Below are positions 27,612-29,862 of a DNA stretch of 64,000 nucleotides, piece by piece. Source of the DNA: Pseudomonas leptonychotis (GTDB lineage Bacteria; Pseudomonadota; Gammaproteobacteria; Pseudomonadales; Pseudomonadaceae); the NCBI RefSeq assembly GCF_004920405.1, contig NZ_RFLV01000001.1:186001-250000 (forward strand). The letters are read 5' to 3'. The notes under the pieces were generated by a model. That model saw nothing but the letters and a program-made list of their open reading frames with translations, was not told the DNA's origin and did no database searches. Both the position numbers and the translations under genes were made by a program. The stretch's first letter is position 1; each line of letters opens with the position of its first letter.

Positions 27612-29153
27612 ATGTCTACTCGCCCTACCCGCAACATTCCACTTGCTGAAGTTTATGACCTTGCCGTGATAGGCGGCGGCATCAATGGTGTAGGGATTGC
27701 TGCCGACGCGTCCGGGCGAGGTTTATCCGTGTTCCTTTGTGAAAAGGACGACCTGGCGCAACACACCTCTTCGGCCAGCAGCAAGCTGATCCACGGCGGT
27801 CTGCGCTACCTGGAGCACTACGAATTCCGCCTGGTACGCGAGGCACTGGCCGAGCGTGAAGTGCTGCTTACCAAAGCCCCGCATATCGTCAAACCCATGC
27901 GTTTTGTCCTGCCACACCGCCCACACCTGCGGCCGGCCTGGATGATCCGTGCGGGTCTCTTTCTTTACGACCATTTGGGCAAGCGCGAGAAACTAGCAGG
28001 CTCGCGCAGCCTGCGTTTCGGCGCCGGTAGCCCGCTAAAGGCCGAGATCAGCCGCGGTTTCGAATATTCCGACTGCTGGGTCGACGACGCACGCTTGGTG
28101 GTACTCAATGCCATGGCTGCCCGCGAACAAGGCGCGCATGTGCACAGCCGCACCCGCTGCGTCAGCGCGCGGCGCAGCAAGGGCTTGTGGCATATCCATC
28201 TGGAGCGCAGCGATGGCAGCCTGTTTTCGATTCGCGCCCGCGCCTTGGTGAATGCTGCCGGCCCCTGGGTGGCGCGCTTTATTCGTGAAGACCTGAAGCA
28301 AGAGTCGCCTTACGGCATCCGCCTGATTCAAGGCAGCCATATCGTCGTGCCGCGCCTGTTCGAGGGTGAGCAGGCCTATATCCTGCAAAACGAAGACCGC
28401 CGCATTGTTTTTGCCATCCCCTACCAGGAGCGCTTCACCCTGATCGGCACCACAGACCGCGAATACCAGGGCGACCCAGCCAAAGTGGCGATCAGCGAAG
28501 AAGAAACCGACTACTTGTTGAATGTGGTTAATGCCCACTTTAAACAGCAATTAAGCCGCAGCGACATCCTCCACACCTACGCTGGGGTGCGCCCGCTGTG
28601 CGACGACGAATCGGACGACCCATCAGCCGTCACCCGTGATTACACCTTGTCGCTGTCCGGCCATCCGGGCGAGGCACCACTGCTCTCGGTGTTTGGCGGC
28701 AAACTCACCACTTACCGCAAGCTCGCCGAATCAGCATTGGCGCAACTGGCCCCTTTCTTCACGAAGATGGGCCCCACTTGGACGGCAACAAGCCTGTTGC
28801 CCGGCGCAGAACAACTGGAGAGCCAGAGCGCTTTGGTTGAAGCACTGTGCGCACGCTTTAGCTGGCTGCCCACCTCACTCGCGCGGCGCTGGGCCAGCAG
28901 CTATGGCAGCCGCAGCTGGGTGATGCTCAAGGGTGTGAGCAACCTCAGCGATCTGGGCGAACACCTGGGCGGCGGCCTGTACACCCGCGAAGTCGACTAC
29001 CTGTGCCAGGAAGAATGGGCCATGCAGGCGGACGACATACTCTGGCGACGCAGCAAGCTCGGGCTGTTCACTACCGCAGCGCAGCAAGCCAAACTCGACA
29101 GCTACCTGCGCATCGAATCGCCGCGCAGCCCTGAAGATGCTCACGCAGCGTAA
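27612..29153 (+). CDS. glpD: Aerobic glycerol-3-phosphate dehydrogenase
   Basis: A 513-residue membrane-associated FAD enzyme oxidising glycerol 3-phosphate to dihydroxyacetone phosphate and feeding quinones. FAD-binding YDLAVIGGGINGVGIAADASGRGLSVFLCEKDDLA, then TSSASSKLIHGGLRYLEHYEFRLVREALAERE and ARALVNAAGPWVARF are diagnostic. ATG 27612 was chosen over the GTG at 27573 because the latter is inside the operator, though the ribosome site is weak. Confidence 0.97.
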   Translation: MSTRPTRNIPLAEVYDLAVIGGGINGVGIAADASGRGLSVFLCEKDDLAQHTSSASSKLIHGGLRYLEHYEFRLVREALAEREVLLTKAPHIVKPMRFVLPHRPHLRPAWMIRAGLFLYDHLGKREKLAGSRSLRFGAGSPLKAEISRGFEYSDCWVDDARLVVLNAMAAREQGAHVHSRTRCVSARRSKGLWHIHLERSDGSLFSIRARALVNAAGPWVARFIREDLKQESPYGIRLIQGSHIVVPRLFEGEQAYILQNEDRRIVFAIPYQERFTLIGTTDREYQGDPAKVAISEEETDYLLNVVNAHFKQQLSRSDILHTYAGVRPLCDDESDDPSAVTRDYTLSLSGHPGEAPLLSVFGGKLTTYRKLAESALAQLAPFFTKMGPTWTATSLLPGAEQLESQSALVEALCARFSWLPTSLARRWASSYGSRSWVMLKGVSNLSDLGEHLGGGLYTREVDYLCQEEWAMQADDILWRRSKLGLFTTAAQQAKLDSYLRIESPRSPEDAHAA

Positions 29154-29194
29154 ATAGCGCTGTAACAATCCGGCCGCCATGGATGGCCGGCCAT

Positions 29195-29219
29195 AAAAAA
29201 GGGCGACCTGAGTCGCCCA
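29195..29219 (-). terminator. Terminator of the phrS/ccoM transcript
   Basis: GGGCGAC-4-GTCGCCC hairpin followed on the minus strand by TTTTTT. On the plus strand (after glpD) only AAATT follows, so it works mainly for the minus-strand transcript. Confidence 0.8.
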
Positions 29220-29240
29220 AATTGCCTTGCGTGCCCCTTC

Positions 29241-29434
29241 GAACCGATTCAAAGCCTGCTGCGCGTCGGCCCTGCTGCGTTAGAAACCGCTCGGCAAGCC
29301 GCTTGCGGCTAACGCGCTTCAGCGTGACCCGAAGGGCGAGGGAAACGAGTAATGCTCATTTACAACTCGTAAACTCCGCTTCCTCGCCGATTTCTGCCTT
29401 GCAGGACTCTAGCTCGCGAGCCTTGAATCGGTCC
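29241..29434 (+). repeat. MITE-like repeat, copy B
   Basis: A 194-base element with terminal inverted repeats (ACCGATTCAA / TTGAATCGGT), no coding capacity, and long identity with copy C, e.g. CTGCTGCGCGTCGGCCCTGC, CTAACGCGCTTCAGCG and GAGTAATGCTCAT. A TTTAC-AACTC-GTAAA hairpin lies inside. It sits in the 3' untranslated part of the ccoM/phrS transcript. Confidence 0.85.
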
Positions 29435-29446
29435 TTCCCAGCAGAA

Positions 29447-29563
29447 TCAGCCTTGCTTACGCTTATGCGAATCCTGCCAGATGAAATAACCAACACCGAC
29501 GAAGAAGGCAACCATCAAACCGACGGTGCCGATACCGGCGAGAACTACGACATCGATAAACAT
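29447..29563 (-). CDS. ccoM: CcoM-like small subunit of cbb3 cytochrome oxidase
   Basis: A 38-residue protein: MFIDVVVLAGIGTVGLMVAF, then FVGVGYFIWQDSHKRKQG. One membrane helix (about residues 5-29) and a short basic tail. It closely resembles CcoM, the single-helix subunit found with the Pseudomonas stutzeri cbb3 oxidase, as I recall it. AGGAGG stands five bases before the ATG, and a perfect ANR box lies 66 bases upstream, fitting a role at low oxygen. It is also the frame carried by the PhrS RNA. No other cbb3 subunit gene is in the window. Confidence 0.8.
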   Translation of the reverse strand: MFIDVVVLAGIGTVGLMVAFFVGVGYFIWQDSHKRKQG

Positions 29564-29628
29564 GCTTGCCTCCTGCATGAAGCCTGTGTGGGTATGGCTT
29601 CACGGTAACAGGGGCCGCGCAGGGGCTA

Positions 29629-29642
29629 TTGATCCAGATCAA
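29629..29642. promoter_or_regulatory. ANR/FNR box
   Basis: TTGATCCAGATCAA, a perfect TTGAT-N4-ATCAA palindrome. Taking it as a class II site (-41.5) puts the -10 near TACCGT and the start near 29594 on the minus strand. Confidence 0.85.
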
Positions 29643-29700
29643 AACTGCGCTGTTCTATGCCGCATCAATAGATCCACGCATAGAAAAGAGCCTGACACTG

Positions 29701-29862
29701 TCAGGACTTTTTCGGTTTGCCCTTGGGTTTTTTCTTGCCTTTGGGTAGCGGCAAAGCCTGTTCGAAGGCATCGCGCATTTCATTGAGTTTTTTATCGCGC
29801 AGGTCATGGATGCGCTTGTCGCGCTCGGCGGCGAAATCAATCAGCTTGTCGTCTTGGCTCAT
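29701..29862 (-). CDS. Small basic conserved protein, unknown function
   Basis: A 53-residue frame starting MSQDDKLIDFAAERDKRIHD, with a charged, probably coiled-coil N-terminal two thirds and a lysine/proline-rich tail (KGKKKPKGKPKKS). Its ATG overlaps the alkB stop as ATGA, evidence for translation by coupling. I do not recognise a family; the tail suggests nucleic-acid or acidic-surface binding. Confidence 0.65.
   Translation of the reverse strand: MSQDDKLIDFAAERDKRIHDLRDKKLNEMRDAFEQALPLPKGKKKPKGKPKKS

Follow-up and report, generated by a model that had tools for sequence, protein, structure and literature searches.

The small RNA PhrS and the cbb3 oxidase subunit CcoM at one locus of Pseudomonas leptonychotis, with a repeat between the frame and a putative pairing element

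Dual-function RNAs such as SgrS/SgrT, RNAIII, SR1 and VcdRP combine a regulatory part with the code for a small protein in one molecule. PhrS of Pseudomonas aeruginosa also contains a short frame, but its peptide is unnamed or of unknown function in papers of 2017 and 2021. According to PMC8672173, what the small proteins encoded in PhrS and several other RNAs do is unknown, PMC8395346 states that the function of the PhrS peptide 'has so far remained elusive', and the peptide is an unnamed protein in PMC5521070. In PMC6700203, the PhrS frame was without effect on CRISPR, and the pairing was done by a 12-nt element named creg.

CcoM, on the other hand, is known as a protein gene: PMC10433244, which does not mention PhrS, describes it for P. 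stutzeri as a cbb3 subunit of 36 residues. The term 'cytochrome c oxidase' is absent from the main text of the PhrS-related PMC8545117. No paper joining PhrS with CcoM was found in the open-licence literature, a statement that concerns this literature and not everything in print. If the PhrS peptide is CcoM, the literature on a quorum-sensing small RNA is joined with that on high-affinity respiration.

The locus described here lies in a 64,000-nt stretch of P. leptonychotis DNA (the window), on the minus strand at 29642–29195. Read from 5' to 3', it consists of an ANR/FNR box, the ribosome site AGGAGG (29574–29569), a 38-codon frame (29563–29447), a repeat of 194 nt (29434–29241), a conserved 12-mer (29234–29223) and an intrinsic terminator (29218–29195). 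The box (TTGATCTGGATCAA, 29642–29629) matches the pattern perfectly and is the single match in the window, against 0.04 expected. The 12-mer, GCACGCAAGGCA, is taken as creg, the base-pairing element of PhrS; the element itself comes from PMC6700203, and its placement at 29223–29234 from the Rfam alignment and from conservation. The terminator has a stem at 29218–29201 followed by six T at 29200–29195, and it is the sole terminator-like site between the box and 29195 on this strand. A scan of 29100–29720 gave three sites against 1.0 expected in shuffles. One of these, at 29705–29691, is located upstream of the box, so that the locus possibly forms a separate transcription unit. A small ORF (MSQDDKLIDF...KKPKGKPKKS, 29701–29862) immediately precedes phrS in the same orientation, and its relatives adjoin six PhrS loci of the genus that have no frame (L106–L109, L112, L113).

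Transcription would start near 29594, a position set at 41.5 nt past the centre of the ANR box, and the predicted transcript (29594–29195) would be about 400 nt long, or 206 nt without the 194-nt repeat. The first-pass annotation had proposed a perfect ANR box, a CcoM-like peptide of 38 codons with a strong ribosome site, a terminator, a transcript of about 400 nt and a length of about 206 nt once the repeat is removed. These features are all present as proposed, with both lengths being predictions from the assumed start.

Very probably, the locus is a single gene under ANR control whose RNA unites two products, CcoM and the pairing end of PhrS, which in this species are spaced by a repeat. 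At low oxygen, ANR would turn on a short mRNA, and its translation would give CcoM, a small subunit of the cbb3 oxidase. The 3' end, consisting of the 12-nt creg and the terminator, would correspond to the part that pairs with other RNAs in PhrS of P. aeruginosa. Pairing with uof-pqsR or a CRISPR leader and binding of Hfq are among the properties by which PhrS is known. Within the window's family, creg would have been joined to the end of an older ccoM gene, on its 3' side, making PhrS a ccoM mRNA by descent. In this species, the repeat would then have entered the linker of 14–22 nt between the stop codon and creg; the RNA of the insert would fold on itself and leave frame, creg and terminator intact, while the whole RNA, at about 206 nt before the insertion, would have reached about 400 nt. 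If this is true, a single oxygen-sensing promoter yields a regulator along with a subunit for respiration. The arrangement differs from SgrS/SgrT, RNAIII, SR1 and VcdRP in that the two parts of PhrS/ccoM occur apart in living species, and in that their protein belongs to a respiratory enzyme, as one of its subunits.

The Rfam model of PhrS (RF01673, gathering score 37) matches the locus twice, at 29600–29422 with 100.7 bits and at 29333–29192 with 45.1 bits. The second match starts inside the repeat, and its score is carried by the 3' end, namely creg and the terminator. Judged by its sequence, the locus is a single PhrS RNA of the Rfam family that has been split in two by the insert. Similar to PhrS of P. 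aeruginosa, which is represented in this comparison by the Rfam consensus and the papers cited above, the locus exceeds the gathering score and has an ANR box, a frame of 37–38 codons, creg and a terminator. It differs in its 194-nt repeat and, owing to this insert, in its predicted length of about 400 nt, as compared with about 212 nt for the 212-position model; length is taken here as a descriptive and not a defining feature of PhrS. Among the 149 genomes of the same genus, RF01673 is found in 146 at E <= 0.001 and exceeds the cut-off in 144. A match to another Rfam family, P24 (RF00629, 108.7 bits), was encountered elsewhere in this genome (L001, G000:C1:787324-787574).

The insert belongs to a repeat family with 56 matched pieces at 40 or more places in this genome, the PhrS copy included, and this count is a lower bound since 40 of 100 candidates were scored. 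The cores measure about 110, 165 or 190 nt, with a few others, and the second copy in the window lies directly after rapA (33926–33790, minus strand). The copies end in inverted arms, the sequence of which differs between copies while their complementarity is kept. Arm pairing was 11.1 of 18 within copies and 8.8 across copies, with none of 10,000 permutations reaching the within-copy value; the 25 rows of this test include one copy twice (L009/L017) and one that is probably spurious (L027, minus strand). The PhrS copy itself scored low (5 of 18), and we think that this is due to a one-base offset of its arms that an ungapped count misses. By our own count, made with no control, 18 of 29 other copies are situated no more than 60 nt from the 3' end of a flanking ORF that has 80 codons or more.

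The repeat is present in other genomes of the genus. An insert in PhrS, however, was not seen in the 133 other CcoM-bearing genomes sampled from the genus, where RF01673 spans about 200–228 nt, and the two genomes nearest on the rpoB tree (G014 and G122) have no split or lengthened PhrS match. Flanks read by eye have GAA on both sides of the PhrS copy, with no consistent pattern at the other copies. Multiple copies, empty sites in relatives and terminal inverted repeats are all MITE-like features. Of the first-pass annotation's 'mobile insert', the insert is plainly there, as a repeat-family copy between the stop codon and creg with its terminator, whereas its mobility is a deduction from the copy number, the inverted ends and the empty site. 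ERIC/RU-type repeats, which are imperfect palindromes with many intergenic copies, are similar in these respects and in their size of about 100–190 nt (the RU sizes being those of an abstract). They belong to another genus, and the outer arms of the window repeat vary yet remain complementary; the likeness is one of description.

In the predicted fold of the transcript, the insert pairs with itself (mean 0.69) and scarcely with the rest (0.001). It closes on itself as a hairpin whose terminal stem measures about 16 bp, the terminator is mostly formed (0.77), creg is partly open (0.44 paired), and the fold of the complete 400-nt RNA is 3.5 sd better than those of shuffled sequences. From this model we infer that the hairpin may let the RNA tolerate the insert. 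The same hairpin is long and stable (-88 kcal/mol alone) and could serve as an RNase site, and among the sampled genomes of the genus the insert is seen in this one alone. It is conceivable that transcription or processing halts at or within the repeat, leaving this species with CcoM and no working end of PhrS. We consider this unlikely, since no terminator-like site precedes 29218 on this strand, and since the sequences behind the insert show no decay, creg being exact and the stem of the terminator complete. The first-pass annotation named a transcript ending upstream of the repeat as an outcome that would speak against it; in the terminator scan of 29100–29720, the sequence does not suggest such an end. 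An intact, repeat-spaced RNA is the preferred reading, and the repeat provides a natural test of spacing.

The conservation of creg suggests that its pairing function would be retained. In 46 of the 47 CcoM-bearing loci of the genus that were read (of 133), creg is exact and placed 14–22 nt past the stop codon; the 47th, in G014, has one change. All 47 have an ANR-like box with at most two mismatches, which precedes the start by 63–82 nt. In the window, the distance from the ccoM stop codon to creg is 212 nt.

The genus also contains 15 genomes without CcoM. RF01673 is kept at E <= 0.001 in 12 of them, in two cases below the cut-off. Ten loci of the genus (L104–L113) have no CcoM frame, yet have a terminator and creg, which is exact in nine and has one change in the tenth; the RNAs predicted from them are about 72–90 nt long. 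Their best ANR-like box is 78–97 nt before creg, with 0–2 mismatches in seven loci and three mismatches in the other three, where it is no better than chance. Of two further loci, L103 has a remnant of the frame and L102 a diverged CcoM-like frame.

One could suppose that the frame is CcoM but that the RNA here, lacking the targets it has in P. aeruginosa, is solely an mRNA, with creg a non-pairing sequence kept as part of the terminator region. Exact complements of creg occur three times in this genome, the locus itself included, and none is at a start codon, as this view would have it. To our knowledge, pqsR is confined to few species. Against it, creg is exact in nearly all of the loci read while the linker ahead of it varies between species, and creg is kept in 11 of the 15 genomes without CcoM, exact in ten. 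The tail of an mRNA would not be expected to outlast its frame, and a purely messenger role is quite improbable. Loci that naturally lack either the frame or creg allow the role of each part to be tested directly.

Allowing one mismatch, creg complements are found at 57 sites in the genome, as compared with 15 for the reversed pattern, although this excess may be owed to composition or to the repeat. Thirty of the 57 were read: 20 are within sense ORFs (by mechanical calls, the locus itself included), one of which is also 132 nt upstream of another start, and ten are antisense or outside ORFs. No established creg target emerged from these 57 sites, 30 of them read. Three one-mismatch complements (L139, L149, L150) lie 18–26 nt after mechanically called starts and are possible PhrS targets. 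Separately, GCAAGGCA, which makes up the final 8 nt of creg, recurs in the repeat (29256–29420 and other copies). Where a repeat copy forms part of another transcript in antisense orientation, it would present TGCCTTGC to creg, and such copies might form a sponge or a target set.

The identity of the frame is supported from several directions. The window peptide matches the NCBIfam equivalog for CcoM, NF041600, with 71.8 bits (E 4.6e-20; curated cut-off 40), and chain N of PDB 5DJQ with E 1.4e-13, a chain whose entry is labelled putative uncharacterized protein. The structure is, we take it, the cbb3 oxidase of S. stutzeri (P. stutzeri). The frame within Rfam's own PhrS consensus also matches NF041600, with 67.2 bits (E 1.3e-18). 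In S. stutzeri 24a13 (L174), the 5DJQ chain is encoded exactly over its first 35 residues at a locus that scores 157.7 bits for RF01673 and has creg 17 nt past the ccoM stop codon; the peptide of 5DJQ and the PhrS frame are thus one gene. Named genomes provided 21 loci, of which 20 were readable (L171, without a start, was left out), and in 15 of these the ccoM frame is followed 17–23 nt later by an exact creg.

Across the genus, 134 of 149 genomes have a CcoM match, and all 135 matches fall inside an RF01673 match (coordinates compared by eye). The extra match belongs to G014, where a second, degenerate ccoM/PhrS copy (L092, C1:2480096-2480293) lies about 4.8 kb from the intact one. The proposal that the PhrS frame is CcoM therefore holds, with the window peptide and the consensus frame both above the curated cut-off; the alignment named beforehand as its test was obtained, with the Rfam consensus standing for PhrS of P. 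aeruginosa, and the failure to align that would have counted against it was not seen. The likeness to CcoM extends to the length of the peptide and the ANR-box promoter. A mere resemblance of two short hydrophobic peptides is scarcely credible, even though both are below 40 residues and the Rfam consensus frame also matches YajC weakly (E 0.012), because the scores are far above the curated cut-off, the 35-residue match at a PhrS locus is exact (which refutes the idea for S. stutzeri), and 133 of the 134 genomes have a single CcoM match, at the PhrS locus. With the frame being CcoM, mutants in which the whole of phrS is deleted would lose an oxidase subunit too, and some of their phenotypes may need controls lacking only the frame or only creg.

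A role of the peptide in the oxidase of this species would agree with the distribution of ccoN, counted at E <= 1e-170. This genome has two copies (C7:11012-12403 and C7:7446-8837). At most one copy is found in 12 of the 15 genomes without CcoM, three of which have two, as compared with nine of the 134 with CcoM (Fisher p 7e-10, without tree correction); two of those nine, G076 and G122, are fragmented assemblies. AlkB, found in 12 of 64 relative loci and in the window, was dropped as a tree marker, and an rpoB tree was built from 80 of the 149 genomes, made up of 14 without CcoM (of 15), eight with few ccoN and 58 hand-picked others. On this tree, the presence of CcoM needs seven changes, at least four of them forced by supported branches. 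Among four independent pairs, ccoN shifts along with CcoM in an average of 3.1 and against it in none. With tree correction, the association is not significant (median p 0.25; four pairs, G122 left out). The pattern fits CcoM serving the cbb3 oxidase, and is not proof of it.

The two parts are also found apart in the other direction. In the remaining five of the 20 readable named loci (L157, L166, L170, L175, L176), ccoM and the box occur without creg within 400 nt; we label these loci Halopseudomonas-type, after the genus name borne by three of them. They score 61–80 bits for RF01673, over the gathering score although creg is missing, and this score must stem from the coding part of ccoM. Hence, an Rfam match to PhrS alone is no proof of a small RNA, and PhrS annotations outside the window's family need checking. 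No other PhrS match was found in the four searched genomes that carry such loci. In Halopseudomonas, creg may have been lost rather than never present. Taken together, the sequences point to three routes of separation: the frame lost and creg kept, creg absent and the frame kept, and, in the window, the two spaced by a self-folding repeat.

The relative age of the parts was examined across the order. CcoM is over the cut-off in 67 of 293 genomes, and at E <= 0.001 in 77, which span 36 of the 118 genera. The pattern of creg and terminator (up to three mismatches), by contrast, occurs in 11 of the 293, all in the window's family, and in two more genomes of this family (g23) creg is accompanied by another terminator. 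Altogether, 54 CcoM loci were read, six from the same family and 48 from other families. An exact creg follows the stop codon by 15–18 nt in all six of the former. It is found in none of the latter (48 read of 55 over the cut-off), one of which has a two-mismatch match 130 nt away. An FNR/ANR-like box, with at most two mismatches within 200 nt upstream, accompanies 47 of the 48 other-family loci, as compared with eight and seven of 48 in two sets of control stretches, and the strict pattern TTGAN6TCAA is present in 38 of the 48 but in none of the 48 downstream controls.

Since the box is order-wide and creg was found in the window's family alone, ccoM with its FNR/ANR-like box looks older, and creg looks to have been added within that family. 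The greater age of ccoM and the separate occurrence of the two parts go beyond the first-pass annotation. PhrS is best read as, by putative descent, the messenger of ccoM, the 3' end of which holds a pairing element. It is likely that an old, order-wide oxidase mRNA under FNR/ANR control received its pairing element in one family, and that the parts have since been separated repeatedly. Among the readable named ccoM loci, 15 of the 20 have two ANR-like boxes (up to two mismatches) about 50 bp apart, at 131–139 and 82–88 nt before the ATG (L156, L158–L165, L167–L169, L172–L174), an arrangement that possibly reflects tandem regulation.
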